Below are positions 12,112 to 53,736 of a stretch of DNA of 64,000 bases, piece after piece. Both the position numbers and the translations under genes were made by a program. Below the pieces are notes generated by a model. That model was not told where the DNA came from. It was given only the letters and a program-made list of their open reading frames with translations, and ran no database searches. The stretch comes from Ascidia mentula (Eukaryota; Chordata; Ascidiacea; Phlebobranchia; Ascidiidae), in NCBI GenBank assembly GCA_947561715.1, contig OX387203.1, positions 8,184,001-8,248,000 of the forward strand, read 5' to 3'. Every line of letters begins with the position of its first letter. Position 1 is the first letter of the stretch.

Positions 12112-15100
12112 ATGGTCATGTTATCGAGGAATTCCTTGGTATTAATCTTTATCTTGTTGGCGGTGATGGTGATTTTTTACTCAGGTTTAAACAACAGGTA
12201 CAAAACTGCACAGAGTATCAGTTATATTAAGGATTTAAAAGGGAAATGTTTTAATTAACACAGAATTTAAACATTTTTGATGATAACTGCAGTATTTTGT
12301 AATCTTAAAGATATAGAACATTAAACATATAGCATAGTGTGGTAATATATAATTTAAGCAAGGATGGTTAGATGTTGCAATTTTCTTTTCAGATATGTCA
12401 ACTTTCAATGGAATGCTGGCAAAGCAATATTGCCTGGTGAGTAGGGTTATCGAATAATCTGTAATATAAACTACAACCAACGCTAAATTACTCTGTAAAA
12501 ATCTACAACAACAAACTCTACACCAATCGACTCCATCCCAAAACGTAAAATGAACATTTATTCGTGACTAATCATTCTTACCAACCAAGTAAGAGGCTCA
12601 ACCAATTCAGGTCATCTCGCCTTGTACCTTTATCTGGTTATCGCTTCTTTGGCTGGTTACTTTTCCCGTGTCAACATGTTAACATTTCTAATGACTAGGT
12701 TCCTTTGGGACCACACGCGGTCGCACTCAAATTTAATAGATGGTTTCTTAGAAGCAAAATGCGACGATATTAAATCAATGAGCTGCGGACAATTTGCATA
12801 TTTCACCAATCAGGCCACATGAAAGCAATTTATGACTGGTGTTTATGAGACGTTGAGCTGGTAACACAATTTGTTAACAAGGAGGTTCCTTGATGGTTTG
12901 TATCTGGTACCGAACAAATCTATTGCGAAGTCATTAACACAGAGTGGAATTGTCTCTGACTTGTTAGTACAGGGCAAAAGTGCCCTCAGTCACCAGCTGC
13001 ACTGTTAAAACATAATAGGTCAAAATTGTGTGCTCTAACTAAAGCTAATAGTACAATTATTTGGGACAGAAGAAAACACATTGGAAACAGAAAGGAATTC
13101 AGCCCTGGTAGAACTACATGGTTTGGTGCAGAAGAAACTTCGGCATTTACAGGTAAAACATCCCAATAGTACAAAACGTTTTCAACAAAAGTAATTTTTT
13201 TTTGCTTTTGTTACTGGTTTTAAACCGCACTAAGATTATACTTTTCAATTAAGAATTTGTGTTATGTACAAGTAACACGTAGAAGCTATTCTTGCCATTT
13301 GACCACAAACACAATCAAATTACTATTCAGATAACCTAATCAAAATGTTTGTTTTTAATCAGAATCCGACAAACTGCTCGAAAGCGCGCAAGCTTCTTTG
13401 TAAGATACAAGCCGGTAACTGTGGATTAATATGCAATCTTCATCACATCGGATTATGTTTCCTGCTTGCGATTGGAACAAACAGAACACTAGTGTCGAAG
13501 ACTGAGTTGGCGATGTACCCTGTTAAGTCACTAAACGAGGCGTATTTGCCTCTTAGCGAAACGTGCAACGATTGGTCAGAGGAAGAGTTTAACAACGTTC
13601 CCAAAATGGCAGGTATGCAGCAAATCACACAAAAACATCATATCTTTTACAATCGCCCAAATACGATAAACAGATGGATTATTAATTACAAGACCTGTGA
13701 TTTTCTTCAATGAAAACGATATTTACTAACTGCACTTTTGTGTGAAACTTCAAAACAACATTTCTGCGATAATTTTTTGTGTCAAACACGTATTCCCAGA
13801 ACAAATTTGTCTTGTGAAATCAAGATTTCTATATTGTTAAATAGAAGCAAAAATGTTTCATCAAGTTTGTCAATCTATGATTTTTGTAGGAGACAAACTT
13901 TTTGAGACAACAAGCGATCGACATGTCGTGAAAATTACTGTCAGAAACCAATTCCGACCATTTACTCCATTCGCACCCAACACGTACCCAGAAACTCTAT
14001 CTCCTCTTTGTGACGAGCCCCAAATATGGTGGGTTGGTCAGTTGATGGAATTCATCACCAGACCTCAACCAGCACTCACCAAACGACTCGAAACAGCTAA
14101 GAGAGAGGTCACCTTCGTGCATCCAATTGTCGGGTAAAGTGAGATGCTATTCTCGGCCTAAAATGTTCTTGGAAAGTATGGTTAAGGCACTTGGACGAGG
14201 TGAAAACAGTTGGAACGAATGGAGTTGTGGAAAATAATACCATTCGCTGATATGTTATACAACATGTTTTTTTAAACATAAATTTCAAGCAACGCATGAG
14301 AGTTTTCTTTGATATTTACTTTGAAAACAAATAACATTGGGCAAAACTACAGAGTTCACGTCAGAAGGACAGACAAGTTGGCCGAAGAATCCGATATTTA
14401 TTCTCTTCACGATTACATGGTTCATGTGGAGAAATGGTTTGACAACTACAGAAACGTCACAAAGAGTAACGTCACTGGAAGAGTTTTCCTGGCAACCGAT
14501 GACGTCAGGGTGTACAAAGAGGCGACAGAAATGTGAGAAAACACATTCTTACATTAACCCCAGATTTACGATTCTGTCCCGATTTTGCAGATTTCCCAAT
14601 TACGTTTTTGTGTCCTTCGCAAACAAATCGCATTTTTCACAAAGAGGAACATCAGAAGGATTTTGGGGGATCGTTGAGGACGTTGCTTTGCTCAGTGAGT
14701 GCGACCACGTCGTTTGCACCTTCAGTTCAAATGTAAGTGAGGAACATAAACAACTTTTGAAATACGTCATTGTTTAATTATTGATAAGATAAAATACAGA
14801 CCAACCGTTAACTTTGTCGCGCAGATTGGAAGATTTGTTTACGAAAGAATGTTGGCCAAAAGAGGTTCGAGTGAAGCAACTGCGATATCTGTGGATGCAT
14901 TTTGGTCATATCCCGGTCAAAACGGCAGACATGAAACCATAAAGGATTTTAAGCCGAGGAATGGAAACGAAATACAACTTGAAGTCGGTGACATCATAGT
15001 GGACGCGAATTGTTATAAGGATTGCGTTGGGACGAACAACCGAACTAAAAAGACTGGGATTTATCCGATGAAGAATGTAAAGATAATTCCTCTAACAGCA

Positions 15101-15118
15101 GCTTACGCAGGAGTGTAG
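12112..15118 (+). CDS. FUT8-like alpha-1,6-fucosyltransferase, copy A
   Basis: GT23 enzymes move fucose from GDP-fucose onto the innermost GlcNAc of N-glycans in the Golgi. Exons: 12112-12197, 12393-12436, 13070-13152, 13363-13612, 13890-14133, 14353-14532, 14591-14732, 14825-15118. All have AG/GT edges and matching phases, giving 440 aa. Exon 1 is a signal anchor (VLIFILLAVMVIFYSGL). Exon 4 starts NPTNCSKARKLLC and keeps the six cysteines and LHH motif of FUT8. Exon 6 has VHVRRTDK and LATDD (GDP-fucose site), exon 7 has EDVALL and CTFSS, exon 8 the SH3-like LEVGDII and KKTGIYP. Exon 3 matches the end of the vertebrate stem helix. The coiled-coil stem (about 130 residues) is absent. Exon 5 lacks four codons (LKET) present in the other copies. 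Two Met codons start exon 1 (MVM); the first is used here. Confidence 0.85.
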
Positions 15119-17032: not shown

Positions 17033-19676
17033 ATGTTATCGAGGAATTCCTTGGTATTAATCTTTATCTTGTTGGCGGTGATGGTGATATTTTACTCAGG
17101 TTTAAACAACAGGTACAAAACTGCACACAATATCAGTTATATTAAGGATTTAAAAGGAAATGTTTTATTTAAAATGGAATTTAAACATTTTTTATGATAA
17201 CTGCAGTGTTTTGTAATCTTAAAGATATAGAACATTAAACATATAGCATAGTGTGGTAATGTATAATTGAGGCAAGGCTGGTTTGATTATACAATTTTCT
17301 TTTCAGATATGTCAACTTTCAATGGAATGCTGGCAAAGCAAAATTGCCTGGTGAGTAGGATTATCAAATAATCTGTAATATAAACCACAACCAACGCTAA
17401 ATTACTGTGTCAAAAATCTACAACAACAAACTACACCAATTGACACCCAAAACGCAAAATTAAGATTTATTCGTGATCGATCGTTTCAAATTTGAGAAGG
17501 ATTTAACATATTGTACCTTTATGTGGTTAACGTTTCTTAGGTTGGCTACTATTTCGTTATAACAATACTTGAATTTAACTGCTGCGCACGATTATACGTG
17601 CTAATTGAGCTGTTCCTATCGTTCTGCTTGAGCTGCGCATTACGAACCGTCATTGAATTCCATGCCTGTTGCATTGTTCGGGCACCGAGAGATACGCCAG
17701 CCCGACAGGCAAAGATAGCGCAACCATGTGCTATGACTTACACTTACAGTATAGAATTATATGACGCAGATGACAAAACAGCGAATATGGAAAGGAATTC
17801 ACCACTGGTGGAACTACATGGTTTGGTGCAGAACAAACTTCGGCATTTGCAGGTAAAACATCCCAAAAGGAGGGATAATATAAACAAAAATCCTCGTTTG
17901 TATTTATAGAATCCTACAAACTGCACAAAAGCGCGCAAGCTTCTTTGTAAGATACCAGCCGGTAACTGTGGATTAATATGCAATCTTCACCACATCGGAA
18001 TATGTTTTCTGCTTGCGACTGGAACAAACAGAACATTAGTGTTGAAGACTGAGTTGGCGATGTACCCAGTTAAGTCACTAAACGAGGCGTATTTGCCTCT
18101 TAGCGAAAGGTGCAACGATTGGTCAGAGGAAGAGTTTAACAACGTTCCCAAAATGGCAGGTAAGCAGCAAATCACACAAAAACATCATATCTTTTACAAT
18201 CGCCCAAATACGATAAACAGATGGAATATTAATTACAAGACACATGATTTTCTTAATAAAAACGATATTTACTAACTGCACTTTTGTGTGAAACTTCAAA
18301 ACAATATTTCTGCGGAAATTTGTTTTGTCAAACACGTATTCACAGAACAAATTTGTCTTGTGAAAAGAAGATTTCTATATTGTTAAATAGAAGCAATTAC
18401 TTTTCAGCAAGTTTGTCAATCTATGATTTTTGTAGGAGACAAACTTACGGAGACAACAAGCGATCGACGTGTCGTGAAAATTACTGTCAAAAACCAATTC
18501 CGACCATTTACCCCATTTGCACCCAACACGTACCCAGAAACTCTCAAGGAAACTTTATCTCCTCTTTGTGACGAGCCCCAAATATGGTGGGTTGGTCAGT
18601 TGATGGAATTCATCACCAGACCTCAACCAGCACTCACCAAACGACTCGAAACAGCTAAGAGAGAGGTCACCTTCGTGCATCCAATTGTCGGGTAAAGTGA
18701 GATGCTATTCTCGGCCTAAAATGTTCTTGGAAAGTATGGTTAAGGCACTTGGACGAGGTGAAAACAGTTGGAACGAATGGAGTTGTGGAAAATAATACCA
18801 TTCGCTGATATGTTATACAACATGTTTTTTTAAACATAAATTTCAAGCAACGCATGAGAGTTTTCTTTGATATTTACTTTGAAAACAAATAACATTGGGC
18901 AAAACTACAGAGTTCACGTCAGAAGGACAGACAAGTTGGCCGAAGAATCCGATATTTATTCTCTTCACGATTACATGGTTCATGTGGAGAAATGGTTTGA
19001 CAACTACAGAAACGTCACAAAGAGTAACGTCACTGGAAGAGTTTTCCTGGCAACCGATGACGTCAGGGTGTACAAAGAGGCGACAGAAATGTGAGAAAAC
19101 ACATTCTTACATTAACCCCAGATTTACGATTCTGTCCCGATTTTGCAGATTTCCCAATTACGTTTTTGTGTCCTTCGCAAACAAATCGCATTTTTCACAA
19201 AGAGGAACATCAGAAGGATTTTGGGGGATCGTTGAGGACGTTGCTTTGCTCAGTGAGTGCGACCACGTCGTTTGCACCTTCAGTTCAAATGTAAGTGAGG
19301 AACATAAACAACTTTTGAAATACGTCATTGTTTAATTATTGATAAGATAAAATACAGACCAACCGTTAACTTTGTCGCGCAGATTGGAAGATTTGTTTAC
19401 GAAAGAATGTTGGCCAAAAGAGGTTCGAGTGAAGCAACTGCGATATCTGTGGATGCATTTTGGTCATATCCCGGTCAAAACGGCAGACATGAAACCATAA
19501 AGGATTTTAAGCCGAGGAATGGAAACGAAATACAACTTGAAGTCGGTGACATCATAGTGGACGCGAATTGTTATAAGGATTGCGTTGGGACGAACAACCG
19601 AACTAAAAAGACTGGGATTTATCCGATGAAGAATGTAAAGATAATTCCTCTAACAGCAGCTTACGCAGGAGTGTAG
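17033..19676 (+). CDS. FUT8-like alpha-1,6-fucosyltransferase, copy B
   Basis: Exons: 17033-17112, 17307-17350, 17770-17852, 17910-18159, 18436-18691, 18911-19090, 19149-19290, 19383-19676; predicted 442 aa, no internal stops. The start is the ATG of MLSRNSLVL; copy A has two extra codons before it. Exon 3 is of the second type (DDKTANMERNSPLVELHG) with acceptor GACGCAG. The frame is also open upstream of this acceptor for about 57 codons, so a longer exon 3 is possible. Exon 5 from 18556 to the end of exon 8 appears identical to copy A. All key positions of the GDP-fucose site are kept (HVRRTDK, DD, ED, SS by analogy with human FUT8). Two NVT sequons sit in exon 6 (NVTKSNVT). Confidence 0.85.
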
Positions 19677-21590: not shown

Positions 21591-24235
21591 ATGTTATCGA
21601 GGAATTCCTTGGTATTAATCTTTATCTTGTTGGCGGTGATGGTGATATTTTACTCAGGTTTAAACAACAGGTACAAAACTGCACACAATATCAGTTATAT
21701 TAAGGATTTAAAAGGAAATGTTTTATTTAAAATGGAATTTAAACATTTTTTATGATAACTGCAGTGTTTTGTAATCTTAAAGATATAGAACATTAAACAT
21801 ATAGCATAGTGTGGTAATGTATAATTGAGGCAAGGCTGGTTTGATTATACAATTTTCTTTTCAGATATGTCAACTTTCAATGGAATGCTGGCAAAGCAAA
21901 ATTGCCTGGTGAGTAGGATTATCAAATAATCTGTAATATAAACCACAACCAACGCTAAATTACTGTGTCAAAAATCTACAACAACAAACTACACCAATTG
22001 ACACCCAAAACGCAAAATTAAGATTTATTCGTGATCGATCGTTTCAAATTTGAGAAGGATTTAACATATTGTACCTTTATGTGGTTAACGTTTCTTAGGT
22101 TGGCTACTATTTCGTTATAACAATACTTGAATTTAACTGCTGCGCACGATTATACGTGCTAATTGAGCTGTTCCTATCGTTCTGCTTGAGCTGCGCATTA
22201 CGAACCGTCATTGAATTCCATGCCTGTTGCATTGTTCGGGCACCGAGAGATACGCCAGCCCGACAGGCAAAGATAGCGCAACCATGTGCTATGACTTACA
22301 CTTACAGTATAGAATTATATGACGCAGATGACAAAACAGCGAATATGGAAAGGAATTCACCACTGGTGGAACTACATGGTTTGGTGCAGAACAAACTTCG
22401 GCATTTGCAGGTAAAACATCCCAAAAGGAGGGATAATATAAACAAAAATCCTCGTTTGTATTTATAGAATCCTACAAACTGCACAAAAGCGCGCAAGCTT
22501 CTTTGTAAGATACCAGCCGGTAACTGTGGATTAATATGCAATCTTCACCACATCGGAATATGTTTTCTGCTTGCGACTGGAACAAACAGAACATTAGTGT
22601 TGAAGACTGAGTTGGCGATGTACCCAGTTAAGTCACTAAACGAGGCGTATTTGCCTCTTAGCGAAAGGTGCAACGATTGGTCAGAGGAAGAGTTTAACAA
22701 CGTTCCCAAAATGGCAGGTAAGCAGCAAATCACACAAAAACATCATATCTTTTACAATCGCCCAAATACGATAAACAGATGGAATATTAATTACAAGACA
22801 CATGATTTTCTTAATAAAAACGATATTTACTAACTGCACTTTTGTGTGAAACTTCAAAACAATATTTCTGCGGAAATTTGTTTTGTCAAACACGTATTCA
22901 CAGAACAAATTTGTCTTGTGAAAAGAAGATTTCTATATTGTTAAATAGAAGCAATTACTTTTCAGCAAGTTTGTCAATCTATGATTTTTGTAGGAGACAA
23001 ACTTACGGAGACAACAAGCGATCGACGTGTCGTGAAAATTACTGTCAAAAACCAATTCCGACCATTTACCCCATTTGCACCCAACACGTACCCAGAAACT
23101 CTCAAGGAAACTTTATCTCCTCTTTGTGACGAGCCCCAAATATGGTGGGTTGGTCAGTTGATGGAATTCATCACCAGACCTCAACCAGCACTCACCAAGC
23201 GACTCGAAACAGCTAAGAGAGAGGTCGCCTTCGTGCATCCAATTGTCGGGTAAAGTGAAATGTTATTCTTGACCTAAAAATGTTCTTGGAAAGTATGGTT
23301 AAGGCACTTAGACGAGGTGAAAACAGTTGGAGCGAATAGAGTTGTGGAAAATAATACCATTCGCTGATATGTTATACAACATGTTTTTTTGAACAAAAAT
23401 TTCAAGCAACGCAGAAGAGTTTTCTTTGATATTTACTTTGAAAACAAATAACATTGGGCAAAACTACAGAGTTCACGTCAGAAGGACAGACAAGTTGGCC
23501 GAAGAATCCGATTTTTATTCTCTTCGCGATTACATGGTTCATGTGGAGAAGTGGTTTAACAACTACAGAAACGTCACAAAGAGTAACGTCACTGGAAGAG
23601 TTTTCCTGGCAACCGATGACGTCAGGGTGTACAAAGAGGCCACAGAAGAGTAATACATCACATTTTTACATTAACCCCAGATTTACGATTCTGTACTGAT
23701 TTTGCAGATTTCCCAATTACGTTTTTGTGTCCTTCGCAACTAAATCCAATTTTGCACAAAGAGGAACATCAGAAGGATTTTGGGGAATCGTTGAGGACGT
23801 TGCTTTGCTCAGTGAGTGCGACCACGTTGTATGTACCTTCAGTTCAAACGTAAGTGAAGCACATATACAACTTTTTAAATACTTGATGGTTCAGTTATTG
23901 ATAAGATAAAATACAGACCAACCGTTAACTTTGTCGCGCAGATTGGAAGATTTGTTTACGAAAGAATGTTGGCCAAAAGAGGTTCGAGTGAAGCAACTGC
24001 GATATCTGTGGACGCATTTTGGTCATATCCCGGTCAAAACGGCAGACATGAAACCATACAGGCTTTTAAGCCGAGGAATGGAAACGAAATACAACTTGAA
24101 GTCGGTGACATCATAGTGGACGCGAATTGTTATAAGGATTGCATTGGGACGAACAACCGGACTAAAAAGACTGGGTTTTATCCGATGAAGAATGTAAAGA
24201 TAATTCCTCTAACAGCAGCTTACGCAGGAGTGTAG
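21591..24235 (+). CDS. FUT8-like alpha-1,6-fucosyltransferase, copy C
   Basis: Exons: 21591-21670, 21865-21908, 22328-22410, 22468-22717, 22994-23249, 23470-23649, 23708-23849, 23942-24235; predicted 442 aa. Exons 1-4 and exon 5 up to 23198 look identical to copy B. From 23199 on the sequence departs: VAFVHPIVG for VTFVHPIVG in exon 5, SDFYSLRDYM in exon 6, FATKSNFAQRG in exon 7, ETIQAFKPRN and TGFYP in exon 8. This 3' part is nearly the same as in copy G and, for exons 7-8, as in copy E. C is therefore a mosaic whose switch point lies within exon 5. Catalytic and SH3-like motifs are intact. Confidence 0.85.
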
Positions 24236-26374: not shown

Positions 26375-29300
26375 ATGTTATCGAGGAATTCCTTGGTATT
26401 AATCTTTATCTTGTTGGCGGTGATGGTGATATTTTACTCAGGATTAAACAACAGGTATAAAACTGCACACAATATCAGTTATATTAAGGATTTAAAGGGA
26501 AATGTTTTATTTAACATTGAATTTAAATACTTTTGATGATAGCTGCAGTGGTTTGTGATCTTAAAGATATAGCATATAGTGTGGTAATGTATAACTTAAG
26601 CAAGGATGGTTTGATGCTGCAATTTTCTTTTCAGATATGTCAACTTTCAATGGAATACTGGCAAAGCAAAATTGCCTGGTGAGTAGGTTTATCGAATAAT
26701 CTGTAATATAAACTACAACCAACGCTAAATTACTCTGTCAAAAATCTACAACAACAAACTACAACAATTGACTCCTAAAACGCAAAATTAAGATTTATTC
26801 GTGATCGATCGTTTCAAATTTGAGAAGGATTTAACATATTGTACCTTTATGTGGTTAACCTTTCTTAGGTTGGCTACTATTTCGTTATAACCATACTTGA
26901 ATTTAACTGCTGCGCACGATTATACGTGCTAATTGAGCTGCTCCTATCGTTCTGCTTGTGCTGCGCATTACGAACCGTTGTTGAATTCCATGCCTGTTGC
27001 ATTGTTCGGGCACCGAGAGTTACGCCAGCCATACAGGCAAAGAAGGCGCAACCGTGTGCTATGACTTACACTTACAGCATAGAATTATATGGCTCAGATG
27101 ACAAAACAGCGAATTTGGAAAGAAATTCACCACTGGTGGAACTATATGGTTTGGTGCAGAACAAACTTCGGCATTTACAGGTAAAACATCCCAAAAGGAG
27201 GGATAACATAAACAAAAATCTTCATTTGTAATTATAGAATCCTGCAAACTGCACGAAAGCGCGCAAGCTTCTTTGTAAGATACAAGCCGGTAACTGTGGA
27301 TTAATATGCAATCTCCATCACATCGGAATATGTTTTCTGCTTGCGACTGGAACAAACAGAACATTAGTTTTGAAGACTGAGTTGGCGATGTACCCAGTTA
27401 AGTCACTAAACGAGGCGTATTTGCCTCTTAGCGAAACTTGCAACGATTGGTCAGAAGAAGAGTTTAACAACGTTCCCAAAATGGCAGGTATGCAGCAAAT
27501 CACACAAAAACATCATATCTTTTACAATCGCCCAAATAGGATAAACTGATGGAATATTAGTTACAAGACATGTGATTTTCTTTGATGAAAACGATATTTA
27601 CCAACTGCACTTTTGTGTGAAACTTCATAACAACACATTCTTGCGAAAAAGATTTTTGTCAAACACGTATTCACACAACAAATTTGTCTTGTGAAACGAA
27701 GATTTTTACATTGTTAAATAGAAACAATCATAAGATAAGCAAAGTGGAGCCAATAATATGAATTGTGTATAAGCTGCAGACAGATGGCCACTGTTTCGAC
27801 CTAAATGGTCTCATCAGTGCAGCTGGTGTGACTTTCAGACTACTTTGCTGACCAAACAGCTTACACAATTCATATTATTGGCTCTACTTTACTTATCATA
27901 TGATTACTGTGACACGTGGCCTGACGGCACTATTGGTTGAGCTTTGCTTGGCCATGGTGTTTCCACCTTGTTTTCTCCGTAAGGTTGCGTCTAGTTTGGT
28001 GCCCAACGGATGACGGTGATTGTATAGTAACCACAAAGTGGAAGTCTTTGCTTGGCCGTTTGGTCAGCAAAGTCGTCTGAAAGTCACACCAGCTGCACTG
28101 ATGAGACCTTTTAGGTCGAAACAGTGGCCATGTGTCTGCAGATTACACAGAAGCATTCATGTTTCAGCAAGTTTGTCAATCTATAATTTTTGTAGGGGAC
28201 AAACTTACGGAGACAACAAGCGATCGACGTGTCGTGAAAATTACTGTCAAAAACCAATTCCGCCCATTTACTCCATTCGCACCCAACACGTACCCAGAAA
28301 CTCTCAAGGAAACTTTATCTCCTCTTTGTGACGAGCCCCAAATATGGTGGGTTGGTCAGTTGATGGAATTCATCACCAGACCTCAACCAGCACTCACCAA
28401 ACGACTCGAAACAGCTAGGAGAGAGGTCGCCTTCGTGCATCCAATTGTCGGGTAAAGTGAGATGTTATTCTTGACCTAAAAATGTTCTTGGAAAGTATGG
28501 TTAAGGCACTTGGACGAGGTGAAAACAGTTTGAGCGCTGATATGTTATACAACATGTTATAAAGCAAAAACTTTCAAACACATTTTTGTTTTTCCCCTTT
28601 GCAACGCATGAGAGTTTTATTTGATATTTACTTTGAAAAACAAATAACATTTGGCAAAACTGCAGAGTCCACGTCAGAAGGACAGACAAGTTGGCAGAAG
28701 AATCCGATTTTTGTTCTCTTCGCGATTACATGGTTCATGTGGAGAAATGGTTTGACAACTACAGAAACGTCACAAAGAGTAACGTCACTGGAAGAGTTTT
28801 CCTGGCAACCGATGACGCCAGGGTGTACAAAGAGGCGGCAGAAGAGTAAACAAACACATTTTTACATTAACCCCAGATTTACGATTCTGTTCTGATTTTG
28901 CAGATTTCCCAATTACGTTTTTGTGTCCTTCGCAACCAAATCGCATTTTTCATAAAGATGAACATCAGAAGGATTTGGGGGGATCGTTGAGGACGTTGCT
29001 TTGCTCAGTGAGTGCGACCACGTCGTATGCACCTTTAGTTCAAATGTAAGTGAGGAACATAAACAACTTATGAAATACGTCATTGTTTAATTATTGACAA
29101 GAGAAAATACAGACCAACCGTTAACTTTGTCGCGCAGATTGGAAGATTTGTTTACGAAAGAATGTGGGCCAAAAGAGGTTCGAGTGAAGCAACTGCGATA
29201 TCTGTGGATGCATTTTGGTCATATCCCGGTCAAAACGGCAGACATGAAACCATAAAGAATTTTAAGCCGAGGAATGGAAACGAAATACAACTTGAAGTCG

Positions 29301-29431
29301 GTGACATCATAGTGGACGCGAATTGTTATAAGGATTGCATTGGGACGAACAACCGAACTAAAAAGACTGGGATTTATCCGATGAAGAATGTAAAGATAAT
29401 TCCTCTAACAGCAGCTTACGCAGGAGTGTAG
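26375..29431 (+). pseudogene. FUT8-like copy D, exon 7 with two stops
   Basis: Exon equivalents: 26375-26454, 26635-26678, 27098-27180, 27238-27487, 28196-28451, 28666-28845, 28904-29045, 29138-29431, with usable splice sites. Exon 7 has TAA at 28953-28955 (CAA in other copies) and TGA at 28959-28961 (GGA in others), and a Trp-to-Gly change follows. Translation would end before the conserved EDVALL and CTFSS motifs and the SH3-like region. Exon 6 has DDAR in place of DDVR next to the conserved Asp pair. Skipping exon 7 (phase 2 to 0) would not restore the frame. Intron 4 carries a 0.4 kb hairpin element. Exons 1-6 and 8 are otherwise open, so the loss is recent. Confidence 0.8.
27731..28150. 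mobile_element. foldback-type element in intron 4 of copy D
   Basis: Absent from intron 4 of the other copies. The flanks AGAAACAATCA and AGAAGCATTCA may be a diverged target duplication. Two nested inverted repeats are visible: GGAGCCAATAATATGAATTG (27745) against its complement near 27870, and a longer arm CTGCAGACAGATGGCCACTG (27772) against CAGTGGCCATGTGTCTGCAG (28122). The longer arms contain TTTCGACCTAAATGGTCTCA. Related pieces occur near 60645 and 62286. No coding sequence; class uncertain. Confidence 0.6.
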
Positions 29432-34200: not shown

Positions 34201-35178
34201 ATATTTGCTTGGTTGACTGTTCATTATAGTTTGATTTTGTTGAATCATGGTACTTCGCAGCCATAAAATGTTTTCAAAGTTAACATAGTTGAAGTTAATG
34301 CCTTCGACAAAATTGTAAGAAAACTGTTGACTTTGACATTTTGCATGTTTAACATAAAAAGGTGCTTGATTGTATTTCAACTACTTATGCTACTTGATGG
34401 TTTCAAATTTGGTTATAATTAGTGGCATATACACATTTTCACAGTTCTATTTGTTTTTCTGCATTTCGTTCCAGTCCTTTTCAATTGCCTTTGGTATTGT
34501 AATACAACTTGGTGCATATATAACTGTGTGGTTTAAAACAACACGCATTTCCCGTGTAATGGGCTTGTAGCCCTATACGACACATTACACGCGTGTTGTT
34601 TAGGCAGGATCGCAGATTTTCACGGCAAAACAACACGTTAGGTGTGTCACAGCATTCACAGGGAGGAACAACACGGCTGTTATGCAACACGTGTACAGTG
34701 TTGTATACGGCTACAGAATTGCCGTGTTAAAACAACACGTTTCACTTTTCTAGTGTGAGTGCGACCACGTTGTATGTACCTTCAGTTCAAACGTAAGTGA
34801 AGCACATATACAACTTTTTAAATACTTGATGGTTCAGTTATTGATAAGATAAAATACAGACCAACCGTTAACTTTGTCGCGCAGATTGGAAGATTTGTTT
34901 ACGAAAGAATGTTGGCCAAAAGAGGTTCGAGTGAAGCAACTGCGATATCTGTGGATGCATTTTGGTCATATCCCGGTCAAAACGGCCGACATGAAACCAT
35001 ACAGGCTTTTAAGCCGAGGAATGGAAACGAAATACAACTTGAAGTCGGTGACATCATAGTGGACGCGAATTGTTATAAGGATTGCATTGGGACGAACAAC
35101 CGGACTAAAAAGACTGGGTTTTATCCGATGAAGAATGTAAAGATAATTCCTCTAACAGCAGCTTACGCAGGAGTGTAG
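31277..35178 (+). pseudogene. FUT8-like copy E, broken by deletion and transposon
   Basis: Exon 1 (31277-31356) is open. Exon 2 (31551-31594) has TTCGG in place of the TTCAG acceptor. Exon 3 starts at 32011 but is fused near 32055 to the end of exon 6 (GTGGAACTA|TGACGTCAGG), so the rest of exon 3, exons 4-5 and most of exon 6 are gone; the joint reads a stop at once (32058-32060). The two parents share CTGG-AAC at the joint, suggesting a deletion at short homology between sister copies. Exon 7 (32149-32255 plus 34758-34792) is split by a 2.5 kb transposon. Exon 8 (34885-35178) is open and almost the same as in C and G. Confidence 0.85.
32256..34755. mobile_element. CACTA-like (CMC) non-autonomous DNA transposon in exon 7 of copy E
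   Basis: The ends CACTAGAAAA and CTTTTCTAGTG form terminal inverted repeats. The flanks (CAGTG before, TGAGTG after), compared with the uninterrupted exon (CAGTGAGTG), show a 2-bp TG target duplication. Removing 2,500 bp plus TG restores the 142-nt exon length. About 250 bp inside each end are dense copies of ACGTGTTG and CAACACGT in both directions, like the subterminal transposase-binding repeats of CACTA elements. The inside is AT-rich with no long ORF, so it cannot supply its own transposase. CACTA/EnSpm is the best fit by end sequence. The duplication is shorter than the usual 3 bp, so Mirage or another CMC member is possible. Confidence 0.8.
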
Positions 35179-36366: not shown

Positions 36367-36452
36367 ATGGTCAGGTTATCGAAGAAATCCTTGGGATGAA
36401 TCCTTATTTTGTTGGCGGTGATGGTAATATTCTACTCAGGTTCAAACAACAG
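36367..36452 (+). pseudogene. orphan FUT8-like exon 1 relic
   Basis: It has the ATG (MVRLSKKSLG), the membrane codons and the CAACAG|GTACAA donor of exon 1. A TGA replaces the codons for VL early in the anchor, and no exons 2-8 follow before copy F. The sequence after it (GATAACTGCAG, then TCTAGTCTAGATACAGAGCA) is shared with the relic at 43401. Confidence 0.75.
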
Positions 36453-37510: not shown

Positions 37511-40494
37511 ATGGTCATGTTATCGAGGAATTCCTTGGTATTAATCCTTATCTTGTTGGCGGTGATGGTGATTTTTTACTCAGGTTTAAACAACAGGTAC
37601 AAAACTGCACAGAGTATCAGTTATATTAAGGATTTCAAAGGGACATGTTTTATTTAACATGGAATTTAAACATTTTTGGTGATAACTACAGTGTTTTGTA
37701 ACCTTAAAGATATAGAACATTAAACATATAGCATAGTGTGGTAATATATAATTTAAGCAAGGATGGTTAGATGTTGCAATTCTCTTTTCAGATATGTCAA
37801 CTTTCAATGGAAGGCTGGCAAAGCAATATTGCCTGGTAAGTAGGGTAATCGAATAATCTGTAATATAAACTACCACCAACGCTAAATTACTATGTAAAAA
37901 TCTACAACAACAAACTACAACAATTGACTCTATCCCAAAACGTAAAATTAACATTTATTCGTGACTAATCATTCTTACCAACAAAGTAAGAGGCTCAACC
38001 AATTCAGGTCATCTCGCCATGCACCTTTCTCTGGTTATCGCTTCTTTGGCTGGTTACTTTTCCCGTATCAACAAATAACATTTCTAATGACTAGGTTCCT
38101 TTGGGACCACACGCAGTCGAACTCAAATTAAATAGATGGTTTCGTAGAAGCAAAATGCGACGATATTAAATCAATGAGCTGCGGACAATTTGCATATTTC
38201 ACCAATCAGGCCACATCGAAGCAATTTATGACTGGTGTTTATGAGACGTTGAGCTGGTAACACAATTTGTTAAAAAGGAGGTTCTTTGATGGTTTGTATC
38301 TGATAGCGAACAAATCTATTCCGAAGTCATTAACACAGAGTGGAATTGTCTCTGACTTGTTAGTACAGGGAAAAAGTGCCCTCAGTCACCAGCTGCACTG
38401 TTAAAACCTAATAGGTCAAAATTGTGTGCTCTAACCTCACATGTCAATTATTTGGGACAGAAGACAACACATTGGAAACAGAAAGGAATTCAGCCCTGGT
38501 AGAACTACATGGTTTGGTGCAGAAGAAACTTCGGCATTTACAGGTAAAACATCCCAACAGTACATAACGTTTTCAACAAAAGTAAATTTTCTTTGCTTTT
38601 GTAACTGGTTTTAAACCGCACTAAGATTATAATTTTCAATTAGAAATTTGTGTTGTGTACAAGTAACACGTAGAAGCTATTCTTGCCATTTGCCCACAAA
38701 CACAATCAAATTAGCATTCAGATAACCTAATCAAAATGTTTGTTTGTGATCAGAACCCGACAAACTGCTCGAAGGCGCGCAAGCTTCTTTGTCAAATACA
38801 AGCCGGTAACTGTGGATTAATATGCAATCTTCACCACATCGGAATATGTTTCCTGCTTGCGATTGGAACAAACAGAACATTAGTGTTAAAGACTGAGTTG
38901 GCGATGTACCCAGTTAAGTCACTAAACGAGGCGTATTTGCCTCTTAGCGAAACGTGCAACGATTGGTCTGAGGAAGAGTTCAACAATGTTCCCAAAATGG
39001 CAGGTATGCAGCAAATCACACAAAAACATCACGTATTTTATAATTGCCCAAATAGGATAAACAGATGGAATATTAATTACAAGACCTGTGATTTTCTTTA
39101 ATGAAAACGATATTTACTAACCACATTTTTCTGTAAAACTTCATAACAACACATTCTTGCGAAAAAGATTTTTTGTCAAACACGTATTCACAGAACAAAT
39201 TTGTCTTGTGAAATCAAGATTTCTGTATGGATAAATAGAAGCAACCATGTTTCATCAAGTTTGTCAACCTATGATTTTTGTAGGAGACAAACTTACGGAG
39301 ACAACAAGCGATCGACGTGTCGTGAAAATTACTGTCAAAAACCAATTCCGACCATTTACTCCATTCGCACCCAACACGTACCCAGAAACTCTCAAGGAAA
39401 CTCTATCTCCCCTTTGTGACGAGCCCCAAATATGGTGGGTTGGTCAGTTGATGGAATTCATCACCAGACCTCAACCAGCACTCACCAAGCGACTCGAAAC
39501 AGCTAAGAGAGAGGTCGCCTTCGTGCATCCAATTGTCGGGTAAAGTGAGATGTTATTCTCGGCCTAAAAATGTTCTTGGAAAGTATGGTTAAGGCACTTG
39601 GACGTGGTGAAAACGGTTTGAGCGCTGATATGTTATGCAAAATGTTATAAAACAAAAATTTCAAGCAACGCATGAGAGTTTTCTTTGATATTTACTTTGA
39701 AAACAAATAACATTGGGCAAAACTACAGAGTCCACGTCAGAAGGACGGACAAGTTGGCCGAAGAATCCGATTTTTATTCTCTTCACGATTACATGGTTCA
39801 TGTGGAGAAATGGTTTGACAACTACAGAAACGTCACAAAGAGTAACGTCACTGGAAAAGTTTTCCTGGCAACCGATGACGTCAGGGTGTACAAAGAGGCC
39901 ACAAAAGAGTAAGAAATCACATTTTTACATTAACCCCAGATTTACGATTCTGTCCTGATTTTGCAGATTTCCCAATTACGTTTTTGTGTCCTTCGCAACT
40001 AAATCCAATTTTGCACAAAGAGGAACATCAGAAGGATTTTGGGGGATCGTTGAGGACGTTGCTTTGCTCAGTGAGTGCGACCACGTCGTATGCACCTTCA
40101 GTTCAAATGTAAGTGAAGCACATAAACAACTTTTTAAATACGTCATTGTTTAATTATTGATAAGATATTATATAGACCAACCGTTAACTTTGTCGCGCAG
40201 GTTGGAAGATTTGTTTACGAAAGAATGTTGGCCGAAAGAGGTTCGAGTGAAGCAACTGCGATATCCGTGGACGCATTTTGGTCATATCCCGGTCAAAACG
40301 GCCGACATGAAACCATACAGGCTTTTGAGCCGAGGAATGGAAATGAAATACAACTTGAAGTCGGTGACATCATAGTGGACGCGAATTGTTATAAGGATTG
40401 CATTGGGACGAACAAGCGAACTAAAAAGACTGGGATTTATCCGATGAAGAATGTAAAGATAATTCCTCTAACAGCAGCTTACGCAGGAGTGTAG
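37511..40494 (+). CDS. FUT8-like alpha-1,6-fucosyltransferase, copy F
   Basis: Exons: 37511-37596, 37792-37835, 38461-38543, 38754-39003, 39284-39539, 39729-39908, 39967-40108, 40201-40494; predicted 444 aa, no stops. Its 5' half is of the type seen in A and G: MVM start, exon 3 with DNTLETERNSALVELHG and acceptor GGGACAG, a long intron 2 of about 625 bp, and exon 4 after GATCAG. Distinctive residues are TGKVFLATDD in exon 6, MLAERGSS and AFEPRN in exon 8, and Val in place of Ile at the first codon of exon 8. The GDP-fucose site, cysteines and SH3-like motifs are all present. It lies downstream of an orphan exon 1, so the unit has an extra promoter-like segment. Confidence 0.85.
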
Positions 40495-43012: not shown

Positions 43013-43325
43013 TGCGCACCAGTGTATCTTGGCCACAATATACCACGTGAAACCGCATAGCTCCTGCAGCTAAGCTGGTAGAGCATTGGGCCTGGTTAGC
43101 CCAGGGTCGTGAGTGCAAACCTCACCGGAAGCTTGATTTCCCAGATCTTGCTTTGACTGGTGCAGAAAAATTGGCTGATCCAGCTAGGCTGGTTCCTGCA
43201 CTGCGTAGCCTTTCAACCTAGTTATTCTGATACGATAGTTGTGATCGCCAAGTGAAGACCTGCGCAGAGGTCGATTCTGCCAATAATGCGATTGCATGAA
43301 ATATTGTTATTAAAGCGGTTGATGG
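43013..43325 (+). repeat. right half of the spacer SINE (F-G)
   Basis: It contains the most complete tRNA-like head of the family: CTCCTGCAGCTAAGCTGGTA (43061), an anticodon-stem-like TGGGCCTGGTTAGCCCA with anticodon position GGT (Thr-like), then a B-box-like GAGTGCAAACCTC. The tail CTGCGTAGCCTTTCAACCTA follows. It suggests that the family was founded by a tRNA-Thr-like sequence. Confidence 0.6.
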
Positions 43326-43400: not shown

Positions 43401-43486
43401 ATGGTCATGTTATCGAAGAAATCCTTGGTATTAATCCTTATCTTGTTGGCGGTGATGGTGATATTCTTCTCAGGTTTAAACAACAT
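43401..43486 (+). pseudogene. orphan FUT8-like exon 1 relic without donor
   Basis: It is open as MVMLSKKSLVLILILLA and further, but the donor CAG|GTACAA is changed to CATCTACAA, so the exon could not be joined normally. No exons 2-8 follow before copy G. It is paired with the relic at 36367 by shared downstream sequence. Confidence 0.75.
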
Positions 43487-44665: not shown

Positions 44666-47664
44666 ATGGTCATGTTATCGAAAAAGTCCTTGGTATTAAT
44701 CCTTATCTTATTTTCGGTGATGGTGATTTTTTCCTCAAATTTAAACAACAGGTACAAAACTGCACAGAGTATCAGTTATATTAAGGATTTAAAGGGAAAT
44801 GTTTTATTTAACATGGAATTTAAACATTTTTGATGATCACTGCAGTATTTTGTAATCTTAAAGATATAGAACATTAAACATATAGCATAGTGTGGTAATA
44901 TATAATTTAAGCAAGGATGGTTAGATGTTGCAATTTTCTTTTCAGGTATGTCAACTTTCAATGGAATGCTGGCAAAGCAATATTGCCTGGTGAGTAAGAT
45001 TATTAAATAATCTGTAATAGAAACTGAAATCAACGCTAAGTTACTTTGTCCTAAAAACTACTACATCGAACTATCGACTCAATCCCAAACCGTAACATTT
45101 ATTCGTGACTAATCATCCTAACCAATCAAGTGATAGACTCAATCAAAATCAGGTCATCTTACCTTGTACCTTTATCTGGTTATCGTTTCTTTGGCTGGTT
45201 ACTTTTCCCGTATCAACAAGTAACATTTCTAATGACCAGGTTCGTTTGGGACCACATGAATGGAACTCAAATTTAATAGATGATTGTACGAGCAAAAGAA
45301 TAAATTAATAGAACAATAATTTCGCAGAAGCAATTGCGACAATATTAAATCAATGGAGCTGCCGACAATTTGCACTATTTCACCAATCAGGCCACATCAC
45401 AGCAGTTTATGACTGGTGTTTATGAGACGTTGAGCTGATAACACAATTTGTTAACAAGGAGGTTCTTTGATGGTTTGGTACCGAACAAATCTATTGCGAA
45501 GTCATTAACACAGAGTGGAATTGTCTCTGACTGGTTAGTACAGGGCAAAAGTGCCCTCAATCACCAGCTACACTGTTAAAACCTAATAGGTCAAAATTTG
45601 TGCTCTAACCTCATATGTCAATTATTTGGGACAGAAGACAACACATGGGAAACAGAAAGGAATTCAGCCCTGGAAGAACTACATGGTTTGGTGCAGAAGA
45701 AACTTCGGCATTTACAGGTAAAACATACCAATAGTACACAACGTTTTCAACATAAGTAAATTTCTTCCTTTCGTAAATGGTTTTAAACCGCCCTAAGATT
45801 CTACTTTTCAATTAGAAGTTTGTGTTGTGTACAAGTAACACGTAAAAGCTATTCTTGCCATTTGCCCACAAACACAATCAAATTACCATTCAGATAACCT
45901 AATCAAAATGTTTGTTTCTTATCAGAACCCGACAAACTGCTCGAAAGCGCGCAAGCTTCTTTGTAAAATACAAGCCGGTAACTGTGGATTAATATGCAAT
46001 CTTCACCACATCGGAATATGTTTCCTGCTTGCGATTGGAACAAACAGAACATTAGTGTTAAAGACTGAGTTGGCGATGTACCCAGTTAAGTCACTAAACG
46101 AGGCGTATTTGCCTCTTAGCGAAACGTGCAACGATTGGTCCGAGGAAGAGTTCAACAATGTTCCCAAAATGGCAGGTATGCAGCAAATCACACAAAAACA
46201 TCACGTATTTTATAATTGCCCAAATAGGATAAACAGATGGAATATTAATTACAAGACCTGTGATTTTCTTAATGAAAACGATATTTACTAACCACACTTT
46301 TCTGTGAAACTTCATAACAACACATTCTTGCGAAAAAGATTTTTGTCAAACACGTATTCACAGAACAAATTTGTCTTGTGAAATCAAGATTTCTGTATGG
46401 ATAAATAGAAGCAACCATGTTTCATCAAGTTTGTCAATCTATGATTTTTGTAGGAGACAAACTTACGGAGACAACAAGCGATCGACGTGTCGTGAAAATT
46501 ACGGTCAAAAACCAATTCCGACCATTTACTCCATTCGCACCCAACACGTACCCAGAAACTCTCAAGGAAACTCTATCTCCCCTTTGTGACGAGCCCCAAA
46601 TATGGTGGGTTGGTCAGTTGATGGAATTCATCACCAGACCTCAACCAGCACTCACCAAGCGACTCGTAACAGCTAAGAGAGAGGTGGCCTTCGTGCATCC
46701 AATTGTCGGGTAAAGTGAGATGTTATTCTCGGCCTAAAAATGTTCTTGGAAAGTATGGTTAAGGCACTTGGACGAGGTGAAAACGGTTTGAGCGCTGATA
46801 TGTTATGCAAAATGTTATAAAACAAAAATTTCAAGCAACGCATGAGAGTTTTCTTTGATATTTACTTTGAAAACAAATAACATTGGGCAAAACTACAGAG
46901 TTCACGTCAGAAGGACAGACAAGTTGGCCGAAGAATCCGATTTTTATTCTCTTCGCGATTACATGGTTCATGTGGAGAAGTGGTTTAACAACTACAGAAA
47001 CGTCACAAAGAGTAACGTCACTGGAAGAGTTTTCCTGGCAACCGATGACGTCAGGGTGTACAAAGAGGCCACAAAAGAGTAATACATCACATTTTTACAT
47101 TAACCCCAGATTTACGATTCTGTACTGATTTTGCAGATTTCCCAATTACGTTTTTGTGTCCTTCGCAACTAAATCCAATTTTGCACAAAGAGGAACATCA
47201 GAAGGATTTTGGGGAATCGTTGAGGACGTTGCTTTGCTCAGTGAGTGCGACCACGTTGTATGTACCTTCAGTTCAAACGTAAGTGAAGCACATATACAAC
47301 TTTTTAAATACTTGATGGTTCAATTATTGATAAGATAAAATACAGACCAACCGTTAACTTTGTCGCGCAGATTGGAAGATTTGTTTACGAAAGAATGTTG
47401 GCCAAAAGAGGTTCGAGTGAAGCAACTGCGATATCTGTGGACGCATTTTGGTCATATCCCGGTCAAAACGGCAGACATGAAACCATACAGGCTTTTAAGC
47501 CGAGGAATGGAAACGAAATACAACTTGAAGTCGGTGACATCATAGTGGACGCGAATTGTTATAAGGATTGCATTGGGACGAACAACCGGACTAAAAAGAC
47601 TAGGTTTTATCCGATGAAGAATGTAAAGATAATTCCTCTAACAGCAGCTTACGCAGGAGTGTAG
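44666..47664 (+). CDS. FUT8-like alpha-1,6-fucosyltransferase, copy G
   Basis: Exons: 44666-44751, 44946-44989, 45635-45717, 45926-46175, 46454-46709, 46899-47078, 47137-47278, 47371-47664; predicted 444 aa, no stops. Exons 1-5 are closest to copy F, though the anchor differs (VLILILFSVMVIFSSNL). Exons 6-8 are nearly identical to copy C (KEATKE for KEATEE). Exon 8 has KKTRFYP where all other copies and vertebrate FUT8 have a Gly before the aromatic-Pro of the SH3-like domain. This may affect folding or be tolerated. Exon 5 has RLVTAKRE for RLETAKRE. All GDP-fucose-site residues are kept. Confidence 0.85.
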
Positions 47665-49460: not shown

Positions 49461-49947
49461 GAAGCTTGTTTCGCTTTTTGTTAATTTTTTTAACTCTTTT
49501 AAGAAAGGTGTACGGTCCAATCATAGCAGTTTAAGATGTCATCGGATGATGGATATTACTGGTTCGTAAACATAAATTCACTGATGTGTTACGTTTTAGC
49601 AAGATTTGAAGGTCTGTGGTAGGATAAGATGTTGGAACTCTCGTTTAGTGCCATCTTTGTTGACTTTGGTTTCGTGTGTCAGGCTTGGTCCTGTAGCAGG
49701 CTAATTATTAACTCCGTAGTGTTTGTATAACGAAGCAATCAGCCTCGGATTTACGTCAGCAGATTTTATTGTGAAAAGTCGATTTCGCTTGTGAAAGTTG
49801 CCATAAGCATCGTCAGTTTCTTATTCAAATAGAATTGCTGTCGCAGATAAATAAACATTGCCTAACCGTGGGCTAGATTCCTCTACAGCTATTAAGCAAG
49901 TCCACCGTAGAGTTTCTTTGCATTGCACGAAAGTTTCACTGTGGGTC

Positions 49948-52900
49948 ATGTTATCGAATAAGTCCTTAGTACTAATCCTTATCTTGTTGGCGGTGATGGT
50001 GATTTTTTTCTCAGGTTTAAACAACAGGTACAAAACTGCACAGAGTATCAGTTATGTTAAGGATTTAAAGGGAAATGTTTTATTTAACATAGAATTTAAA
50101 CATTTTTGATGATAACTGCAGTGTTTTGTAATCTTAAAGATATAGATCACTAAAGATATAGCATAGTGTGGTAATATAAAATTTAAGCAAGGATGGTTAG
50201 ATGATGCAATTTTCTTTTTAGATATGTCAACTTTCAATGGAATGCTGGCAAAGCAATATTACCTGGTGAGTAGGGTTATCGAATAATCTGTAATATAAAC
50301 TACAACCAACGCTAAATTACTCTGTCAAAAATCTACAACAACAAACTACAACAATTGACTCCTAAAACGCAAAATTAAGATTTATTCGTGATCGATCGTT
50401 TCAAATTTGAGAAGGATTTAACATATTGTATCTTAATGTGGTTAACCTTTCTTAGGTTGGCTACTCTTTCGTTATAACCATACTTGAATTTAACTGCTGC
50501 GCACGATTATACGTGCTAATTGAGCTGCTCCTATCGTTCTGCTTGAGCTGCGCATTACGAACCGTTGTTGAATTCCATGCCTGTTGCATTGTTCGGGCAC
50601 CGAGAGATACGCCAGCCCGACAGGCAAAGATAGCGCAACCATGTGCTATGACTTACACTTACAGTATAGAATTATATGACGCAGATGACAAAACAGCGAA
50701 TATGGAAAGGAATTCACCACTGGTGGAACTACATGGTTTGGTGCAGAACAAACTTCGACATTTACAGGTACAACATCCCAAAAGGAGAGATAATATAAAC
50801 AAAAATCCTCGTTTGCAATTTTAGAATCCTGCAAACTGCACAAAAGCGCGCAAGCTTCTTTGTAAAATACAAGCCGGTAACTGTGGATTAATATGCAATC
50901 TTCACCACATCGGAATATGTTTCCTGCTTGCGACTGGAACAAACAGAACATTAGTGTTGAGGACTGAGTTGGCGATGTACCCAGTTAAGTCACTAAACGA
51001 GGCGTATTTGCCTCTTAGCGAAACGTGCAACGATTGGTCAGAGGAAGAGTTTAACAACGTTCCCAAAATGGCAGGTATGCAGCAAATCACACAAAAACAT
51101 CATGTCTTTTAAAATCGCCCAAAATAGGATAAACTGATGGAATATTAATTACAAGACATACGATTTTCTTCAATGAAAACGATATTTACTAACTGCACTT
51201 TTGTGTGAAACTTCGAAACAGCATTTCTGCGATAATTTTTTGTGTCAAACACGTATTCACAGAACAAATTTGTCTTGTGAAACGAAGATTTCTATATTGT
51301 TAAATAGAAGCAAAAATGTTTCAGCAAGTTTCTCAATCTATAAATTTTGTAGGGGACAAACTTACGGAGACAACAAGCGATCGACGTGTCGTGAAAATTA
51401 CTGTCAAAAACCAATTCCGGCCATTTACTCCATTCGCACCCAACACGTACCCAGAAACTCTCAAGGAAACTCTATCTCCTCTTTGTGACGAGCCCCAAAT
51501 ATGGTGGGTTGGTCAGTTGATGGAATTCATCACCAGACCTCAACCAGCACTCACCAAACGACTCGAAACAGCTAAGAGAGAGGTCGCCTTCGTGCATCCA
51601 ATTGTCGGGTAAAGTGAGATGCTATTGTCACGGAATTATTTCCTACTTCGGCCCGGACCCTGCAATAACGGCTCATCACTAAAGCCAAAGTCTCTCTCGC
51701 TGGTTCGCTAATTGGGCTTCTCTTTAATAAACAGCTAAAACGACAGTGAATCGTGAATATCTCAGTAAAAGCCAATACAACCATCAATACTCGTTTTGCG
51801 ACACTCCCAACCCGTACAGCACGACGCCCCTCTCAAAACTAACCGGGTCGTACCAAAAGCACTGCTTTGTCCCGGCCAATCAACCAATCAACGTACACGT
51901 AAATCAATGGGGCGTTACGGGACGACGTGGCAAACATAGAAAAACGACAATTTGTGAAAATAATGTGCGAGAAAAGTTAGAAACATAAACAAAAGTGCGA
52001 TGGGATGTGCGTATATAAGTAACAAGAGTGATTTAAATAAACAACACAAGTGAACAAAGAAAGCATAAAGAAAAGAATTAGTGTCTGTGTGTCGTGTGTC
52101 GTTGTCGTTTTCGCTACACTATTTTCGGCCTAAAAATGTTCTTGGAAAGTATGGTTAAGGCACTTGGACGAGGTAATGCGGTTTGAGCGCTGATATGTTA
52201 TGCAAAATGTTATAAAACAAAAATGTCATGCAACGCATGAGAGTTTTCTTTGATATTTACTTTGAAAACAAATAACATTGGGCAAAACTACAGAGTTCAC
52301 GTCAGAAGGACAGACAAGTTGGCCGAAGAATCCGATTTTTATTCTCTTCACGATTACATGGTTCATGTGGAGAAGTGGTTTGACAACTACAGAAACGTCA
52401 CAAAGAGTAACGTCACTGGAAGAGTTTTCCTGGCAACCGATGACGTCAGGGTGTACAAAGAGGCGGCAGAAGAGTAAACAAACACATTTTTACATTAACC
52501 CCAGATTTACGATTCTGTTCTGATTTTGCAGATTTCCCAATTACGTTTTTGTGTCCTTCGCAAACAAATCGCATTTTGCACAAAGAGGAACATCAGAAGG
52601 ATTTTGGGGGATCGTTGAGGACGTTGCTTTGCTCAGTGAGTGCGACTACGTCGTATGCACCTTCAGTTCAAACGTAAGTAACGCCACATAATAATTCCGT
52701 GGAGCTTACGTGGCAAGACGGGAGATGGGTTTAATTTGGCACGATTTGATATTCAATTTCGTCTTGCAGGGGTTTTATTTGATATAGATTTGTTCATGTA
52801 TTGTAGTGCAAAAACATTTGACCACATTCGCAAACTTTAACTGAAAATAACAGTCCGAAATGTTTTGATATGCAAGTCAAGTCCATAATGGGTTAGTATA

Positions 52901-53736
52901 ATTTTCATATCCGCACTGGGATTTGAACCCAGGATATCCTGGCCATGAATCCCGATCAGGTTCACTTCCTGGTATATGGGCCGGGCGCCTGACCAATAAA
53001 TTTCGCCAACGTTTTTTCCGGGTGATTGCCCACCACTGGCACATTGTGGACTTTACTTACACGGATTATTTTAGTTTATTTCTGCCTAATTTTATGGAAG
53101 AAAGCCGGACAAGATGTGGTTGCAAAGCAGCAACTTGTCTTTGATCTTGGCATAAAAGTCATCAACACATTTGTTCATATTTCCCAAATTTCCTAAAACA
53201 CACGCCCAAAAAAACTCAAAAGACAACTAAGGTTTCAGCTTATAGACCTTATTTATTTAAAATACGTTAGTCATGAATTCTAATGCAAAAACATTTGTCC
53301 GCGTTTTTCCCGCATGGCTATTTGTGATAATTTCTAACTATTTTCCACGCGTCATAAAATTTGTCCAGCCCTGATGTAGATTTTATATCGCTGGTTTTTA
53401 AAGTCAGGCAAATGTTAACCAAGTAATATTTTTGTTCCGCAGATTGGAAGATTTGTTTACGAAAGAATGTTGGCACGAAGAGGTTCGAGTGAAGCAACTG
53501 CGATATCTGTCGACGCATTTTGGTCATATCCCGGTCAAAACGGCAAACATGAAACCATACAGGCTTTTAAGCCGAGGAATGGAAAAGAAATACAACTTGA
53601 AGTCGGTGATATCATAGTGGACGCGAATTGCAATAAGAATTGCGTTGGGACGAACAACCGGACTAAAAAGACTGGGATTTATCCGATGAAGAATGTAAAG
53701 ATAATTCCTCTAACAGCAGCTTACGCAGGAGTGTAG
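49948..53736 (+). CDS. FUT8-like alpha-1,6-fucosyltransferase, copy H
   Basis: Exons: 49948-50027, 50222-50265, 50685-50767, 50825-51074, 51353-51608, 52294-52473, 52532-52673, 53443-53736; predicted 442 aa, no stops. The anchor (MLSNKSLVLILILLA) is intermediate between the two exon-1 types; exon 3 is of the B/C type. Intron 5 contains a solo LTR, and intron 7 is enlarged to 769 bp by a tRNA-derived SINE. It is the most distinct functional copy in exon 8 (MLARRGSS, NGKHETIQ, NGKEIQLE, ANCNKNCVG). Exon 7 has CDYVVCTFSS for CDHVVCTFSS. The catalytic and SH3-like motifs are intact. As the last gene it borders the GT10 gene on the opposite strand (convergent). Confidence 0.85.
51626..52118. mobile_element. 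solo LTR fossil in intron 5 of copy H
   Basis: It starts TGTCACGG and ends GCTACA, flanked on both sides by CTAT, a 4-bp target duplication; sister copies lack it. A TATATAAG box near 52013 and AATAAA near 52035 fit an LTR promoter and poly(A) region. There is no internal retroelement sequence, so it is a solo LTR left by recombination between two LTRs. The TGTCACGG start is common in Gypsy-type LTRs. It is younger than its relative at 42.4 kb. Confidence 0.75.
52805..53000 (-). repeat. tRNA-derived SINE in intron 7 of copy H
   Basis: On the minus strand, 52995-52915 reads GTCAGGCGCCCGG, then GGTTCAAATCCCAG (B box) about 65 nt later. A related unit lies at 53.85 kb. TGCAAAAACATTTG near both is probably part of the SINE tail. 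Confidence 0.5.

Follow-up and report, generated by a model that had tools for sequence, protein, structure and literature searches.

A 64,000-nucleotide stretch of Ascidia mentula chromosome 7 (the window, to whose positions all plain coordinates refer) contains a tandem array of FUT8-like genes of family GT23. An exon-by-exon search of the whole window, with splice models checked, placed eight units on the forward strand between positions 12118 and 53736. Six are intact (A, B, C, F, G, and H), two are pseudogenes (D and E), and two dead orphan first exons lie among them, in agreement with an earlier sequence-only reading that had proposed these same numbers, all in one direction. That reading had also given every unit a common eight-exon structure, which holds for seven of the eight: A, B, C, D, F, G, and H each have eight exons, GT-AG boundaries at all seven introns, and intron phases of 2,1,0,1,2,2,0, but E has had exons lost or split. 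The reading frame is open from ATG to stop in the six intact copies, giving 438 amino acids (aa) in A and 442 aa in the others.

Gene G (44672-47664) served as the reference copy of the analysis, with exons at 44672-44751, 44946-44989, 45635-45717, 45926-46175, 46454-46709, 46899-47078, 47137-47278, and 47371-47664. The shorter product of gene A (12118-15118) reflects a four-codon in-frame deletion in exon 5, and its exons lie at 12118-12197, 12393-12436, 13070-13152, 13363-13612, 13890-14133, 14353-14532, 14591-14732, and 14825-15118. Comparison of the copies showed gene B (17033-19676) to be a chimera of C and A; gene C itself spans 21591-24235 and gene F 37517-40494. Gene H (49948-53736) has the most diverged exon 8 and an intron 7 of 769 bp.

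The inactive units have been damaged in different ways. Pseudogene D (26375-29431) retains all eight exons and carries two nonsense codons in exon 7. Pseudogene E (31277-35178) consists of exons 1 and 2, the start of exon 3, the end of exon 6, a split exon 7, and exon 8, a deletion that runs from within exon 3 into exon 6, most of which is gone, having joined the remainders of these two exons. An insert of 2,500 bp (32256-34755, no strand assigned) interrupts exon 7; its ends, CACTAGAAAA, are inverted, and 2 bp of target sequence, TG, are duplicated. The insert is transposon-like, and its end motif points to a possible CACTA/EnSpm type. The first orphan exon 1 (36375-36452) has lost its ATG and contains an in-frame stop, and the second (43407-43485) has lost its donor GT, as judged by the exon search and a splice check; both are on the forward strand.

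Encoded proteins and the wider GT23 family

Protein searches upheld the GT23 identity proposed by the sequence-only reading. Spliced G matched the human FUT8 chains in the PDB (such as 6X5S, 6TKV, and 6VLD) with E = 1e-77 over residues 51-431, an alignment that covers the catalytic domain and extends through the C-terminal SH3-like region, and it matched Pfam FUT8_N_cat at 306.8 bits (E 3.8e-91; curated cut-off, 27.6 bits). A weaker match to Pfam NodZ over the nucleotide-binding region (18.4 bits) falls below that family's cut-off of 28.3 bits. NodZ is a bacterial alpha-1,6-fucosyltransferase that acts on chitin oligosaccharides and is not known to have an SH3 domain. The GT23 signature, comprising the RR-x-D-K donor motif, Glu373, Asp409, Asp453, and Ser469 (human FUT8 numbering, used throughout), is present in all seven aligned array rows. 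The KKTG motif that had been listed for the array reads KKTR in G.

The N-terminal part of the array proteins differs from that of human FUT8, to which they are about 38% identical. Only 69 residues precede exon 4, compared with 199 before the matching point in the human protein (the NP at the start of exon 4), and the stem helices and coiled-coil are therefore absent. Exon 1 encodes a single hydrophobic stretch, whose best 17 residues average a hydropathy of 2.7-2.8 in both G and A and which is consistent with a type II membrane anchor. An intact copy would thus be a short type II membrane enzyme, with the exon 1 anchor followed by a linker of about 43 residues, a GT-B catalytic domain, and an SH3-like end, and without a stem it would not be expected to multimerize the way human FUT8 does.

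Papers are cited here by PMC number, in each case for an excerpt of the paper. The intron phases between exons 3 and 8 (0,1,2,2,0) fit the chordate fut8 intron sites i4c, i5l, i7l, i7c, and i9l (PMC4204859) by phase, order, and exon size. Because introns at these chordate sites have been kept, the copies must have arisen by duplication at the DNA level, and we excluded an origin as retrocopies.

We mapped the residue roles described for human FUT8 (PMC7033129) onto 36 gene models from the A. mentula genome. R365, R366, D368, and K369 are retained in 36 of 36 models and E373 in 34, the exceptions being Asp at C71:8.00 Mb and Arg at C73 (loci elsewhere in the genome are written in this way). The seven array rows also keep D409, D410, D453, S469, Y250, and H363. 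On the acceptor side, all seven carry Ala for K216, Asn for D295, Asn for Q470, Ala for D495, and Ser for Y498, and all have lost H535, which aligns with Asn by MAFFT and with Tyr by HMMER. These six residues hold the N-glycan in human FUT8 (PMC7033129); none of the six is present in the array rows, whereas all six are present in a separate gene at C2:10.099 Mb that looks like a conventional FUT8. In the array A374 is Ser, and D494, G501, and Q502 are unchanged. The donor pocket is not wholly unchanged, since Y220 is Leu and G221 is Ile (both backbone contacts in human FUT8) and V450 is Ile.

The conventional gene at C2:10.099 Mb belongs to the same family, and the splice phases of the array also fit its exons 4-8. 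Its product is 67% identical to human FUT8 and 35-37% identical to the array proteins; it keeps the tested acceptor contacts except for V531 (Ile), and its donor columns differ from human at Y220 (Phe), H363 (Gln), and D410 (Glu). The existence of this gene ruled out the idea that the array is simply the single FUT8 orthologue multiplied.

A maximum-likelihood tree was built from human FUT8 and 35 A. mentula rows, 36 in total, with C73 excluded as a poor model. Human FUT8 and the two C2 genes group together (98/97), next to a very long C72 branch, and a 32-row expanded clade that contains the array is set apart from them (100/97). The array copies, which do not group with human FUT8, form one clade with a singleton at C71:4.37 Mb (100/100), the internal order of which is not resolved. 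Given their position outside the human FUT8 clade and the separate conventional gene, the array genes are better called FUT8-like GT23 than FUT8.

The array is one part of a much larger family. We searched 79 contigs totaling 195.8 Mb, the published assembly comprising 95 scaffolds and 197.0 Mb (PMC11109543). A Pfam search, in which 86 of 171 candidates were scored, gave at least 93 GT23 exon matches, and an exon search of the matched regions resolved at least 37 copies (36 multi-exon copies plus E) at 16 loci on eight of the nine chromosomes. A separate search with exon 4, in which all 36 candidates were scored, gave 34 places, none of them outside the known loci; it missed the C72 and C73 copies, and E has no exon 4. 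When exons 4-8 were modeled automatically with the phases imposed, 33 of 36 models followed the splice rule, of which 30 were free of internal stops. Among these 30, a model at C52:8.28 Mb and another at C52:18 Mb look frame-shifted, so that 28 show no evident lesion. The exon search of the fetched regions did not recover exon 8 of the two C1 copies.

Two other tandem groups resemble the array in having exons 4-8 in its splice phases: eight copies at C52:18.15-18.21 Mb, which are 54-57% identical to copy G, and four at C71:15.88-15.91 Mb, which are 41-42% identical to it. Both groups keep R365, R366, D368, K369, and E373, and in their undamaged copies CTFSSN replaces CTFSSQ. Their acceptor-site residues differ both from FUT8 and from the array. 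The first group (C52:18152000-18212000) has five further partial copies of exon 6 between its units.

K216 is present in one of the 36 models and H535 in three (the two C2 genes and C72), Asn replaces Q470 in all but one of the 34 models that lie outside C2, and acceptor-site changes vary by locus, with D295, for example, retained at C52:18 Mb. Within the array, the 14 mapped acceptor columns show no variation among the seven aligned copies, and the mapped donor columns that vary among intact copies are the guanine contacts 436 (Ala/Ser) and 471 (Ile/Val). The diversification of fucose transfer suggested by the sequence-only reading is therefore supported between GT23 subfamilies, whose acceptor contacts differ from FUT8 and by locus, but is not supported within the array.

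Most animals have one fut8, with two named for zebrafish, Xenopus laevis, and Saccoglossus (PMC4204859); Ciona may also have more than one, because a table row in that paper reads "C. intestinalis A". The tandem expansion, as had been proposed, thus goes beyond the one or two genes usual in animals. It has a precedent in the rumen fluke Calicophoron daubneyi, which is reported to have a lineage-specific GT23 expansion that is smaller when compared by gene count only: it has 11 alpha-(1,6)-fucosyltransferase genes, while 17 platyhelminths average 1.7 (PMC11727788). We found no paper on GT23 expansion in tunicates in the one open-access library searched, and other journals may hold some.

Divergence among the copies and accounts of the array

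The array copies are closely related, and unequal crossing-over or gene conversion has made them mosaics of one another. Sequence identity is 92-97% in ten pairs of intact copies with the same length, and the six intact copies vary at 42 positions in exons 4-8 (four of them being the deletion in A) and at 18 of the 69 positions in exons 1-3. Blocks as long as 7.9 kb are duplicated at 97% identity and span genes and spacers alike. Exons 1-4 of B match those of C base for base and its exons 6-8 those of A, and C and G differ by two bases in exons 6-8.

The intact copies show purifying selection. The ratio of nonsynonymous to synonymous divergence (dN/dS), which had been put forward as a check on the copies, is 0.24-0.43 in the 15 pairs of intact copies, at a synonymous divergence (dS) of 0.04-0.13, and it is 0.19-0.48 in the six pairs that include D. 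Against the relative at C71:4.37 Mb, dN/dS is 0.19-0.24 for the seven comparable copies. Since D, at 0.23, is as low in this comparison as the intact copies, it probably died recently.

We think it reasonably probable, from these sequence comparisons, that the array encodes a working stem-less GT23 fucosyltransferase that acts on an acceptor other than the standard FUT8 glycan and has been recently amplified in tandem. In such a history, one member of a divergent GT23 clade would have been multiplied by unequal crossing-over and gene conversion, and the near-identical copies would provide dosage and also a pool in which recombination continues. We infer the donor and the linkage here, as well as the change of acceptor, the membrane topology, and any dosage role. 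Because the copies are 92-97% identical and carry the same residues at the 14 acceptor columns, dosage, which the sequence-only reading had offered as an option, or turnover fits the array itself better than diversification does.

Several observations weigh against this account. Human FUT8 without its stem retains its activity, but it multimerizes less and its stability in cells is lower (PMC9709245). The donor side is not wholly unchanged: in addition to the changes at Y220, G221, and V450, the replaced Q470 has been described as coordinating GDP-fucose (PMC12930516). The change of acceptor is suggested by residue correspondence at about 38% identity, with one column, H535, that differs between the two alignment methods, and a weakened acceptor site could still take N-glycans. 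The tree is rooted at the midpoint only and, by the program's own warning, joins long branches to each other, which leaves the split from FUT8 undated. Finally, the ratio of 0.23 in pseudogene D means that low dN/dS alone is no proof that each copy works now.

The possibilities that we weighed beside it overlap, and our degrees of confidence in them need not sum to one. The strongest is that the copies core-fucosylate N-glycans as FUT8 does, perhaps truncated or paucimannose ones, and were amplified for dosage or tissue use. The catalytic base and the main donor residues are retained, removal of the stem leaves FUT8 active, human FUT8 can act on protein-attached high-mannose glycans that lack the N-acetylglucosamine (GlcNAc) of the standard glycan (PMC7033129), and the fluke expansion was read by its authors as core fucosylation (PMC11727788). 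However, K216, D295, and Q470, by which the two core GlcNAc units themselves are held, are among the replaced residues, and a conventional FUT8 with these contacts exists elsewhere in the genome. We therefore regard a FUT8-like role as an unlikely, though respectable, alternative.

The losses within the array raise a second possibility, that it is the debris of birth and death, with one or two copies that work and the rest passengers of unequal crossing-over heading for loss. Two of eight units and both orphan exons are dead, and damaged copies also occur at the C52:18-Mb, C71:15.9-Mb, and C73 places. Yet in six of the eight copies a frame of 438-442 codons is open and every splice site is present, and their dN/dS values, given above, speak against general decay. 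We consider this explanation doubtful as a full account of the array, although it may hold in part alongside a working, recently amplified enzyme with a new acceptor.

A switch of donor seems highly improbable to us; part of the clade would then use GDP-L-galactose, L-galactose being 6-hydroxy-L-fucose, and make the alpha-L-galactans of the ascidian tunic. The changes at Y220 and G221 do lie within the donor site, but most donor residues resemble those of FUT8. Sulfated alpha-L-galactans are listed for the tunics of Styela and Herdmania, and Ciona appears in the title of a work cited there, in an excerpt that does not name the transferases (PMC3366676); a contact that reads C6 of the fucose was not found in the passage of PMC12930516. 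Least credible of all is an assembly artefact in which one or two genes were falsely duplicated, which near-identical blocks such as exons 1-4 of B and C might suggest: the seven comparable copies differ at a dS of 0.04-0.16 (21 pairs), have their own indels and insertions, and are irregularly spaced, the assembly has 1.2% duplicated BUSCO genes at 74x HiFi coverage, and scaffolding or collapse is unlikely because the window contains no N and the HiFi assembly has a QV of 64.9 (PMC11109543).

If the recently amplified, acceptor-shifted enzyme that we favor is active, the array and its relatives would be natural variants for asking what sets the acceptor choice of FUT8, and they could reveal a role for animal GT23 enzymes outside core fucosylation. 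No report of such a role was found in the open-access library searched, and other journals may hold some. In this one chordate genome, at least 37 GT23 copies fall into several deep subfamilies that have kept the chemistry and rebuilt the acceptor site.

Fucose-related genes and other features

Gene H lies tail to tail with a GT10 fucosyltransferase catalytic exon (54376-55098, reverse strand), which is flanked by a reading frame, recognized by eye, that resembles a GT10 N domain (55468-55668). The best match of this GT10 elsewhere in the genome is a 75% identical GT10 at C71:4378654-4379364, about 6 kb from the C71:4.37-Mb gene that is the array's closest GT23 relative, in an orientation that differs from that of the window pair. 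That the closest paralogue of the window GT10 adjoins the closest relative of the array suggests that the GT23-GT10 pair was copied together. Four of the 16 GT23 loci have a GT10 locus no more than 100 kb away, where 0.71 would be expected (p 0.006), or 0.90 if placement is kept within chromosomes (p 0.010); these p values are descriptive only, because the test was chosen after adjacent pairs had been noticed.

We also searched the genome for other gene families. GT10 gave 109 exon matches in about 96 clusters, not individually confirmed as genes, at 38 loci, a larger set than that of GT23 in this 196-Mb genome. GH29 fucosidases gave 30 exon matches at two places, read as about six genes, and so have not expanded to the extent that GT10 and GT23 have. 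GT29 sialyltransferases gave one exon match (two candidates scored), and since control genomes gave none, diverged genes may be missed. A search for GT11 gave no matches, but its positive control also gave none, and the result is therefore uninformative.

In Ciona and Halocynthia, sperm-egg binding has been reported to involve fucosyl glycans of the egg coat and a sperm alpha-L-fucosidase (PMC9265791). Together with the tunic galactans, this makes the egg coat and the tunic places where a role for the array may be sought. More speculatively, and we hold it improbable as it stands, GT23, described as undiverged in animals, might have radiated in ascidians into non-core fucosyltransferases that write variable fucose epitopes together with GT10, sometimes as linked pairs, for example on the egg-coat glycans bound by sperm alpha-L-fucosidase. 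Were this true, recombining arrays would create variation between individuals in the copy number and sequence behind such epitopes.

Other features of the window and the genome were recorded in passing. At 1796-3616 lies a tandem repeat of nine in-register copies, each about 190 bp long. A tRNA-like Rfam match (37.7 bits) lies at 43060-43133 on the forward strand, where ARAGORN reported none, and a short open reading frame at 60043-60186 on the reverse strand has a Cys/His pattern that, judged by eye, resembles a RING finger. The mitochondrial contig, C79, uses the ascidian code, since AGA and AGG (AGR) encode Gly at invariant glycines of COX1. This code ruled out Daphnia, which had been considered as the source because glycosyltransferase clusters in it influence resistance to parasites. 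The mitochondrial genome is 19,461 bp long; those of Corella and Clavelina, given as 14.5 kb, are smaller.

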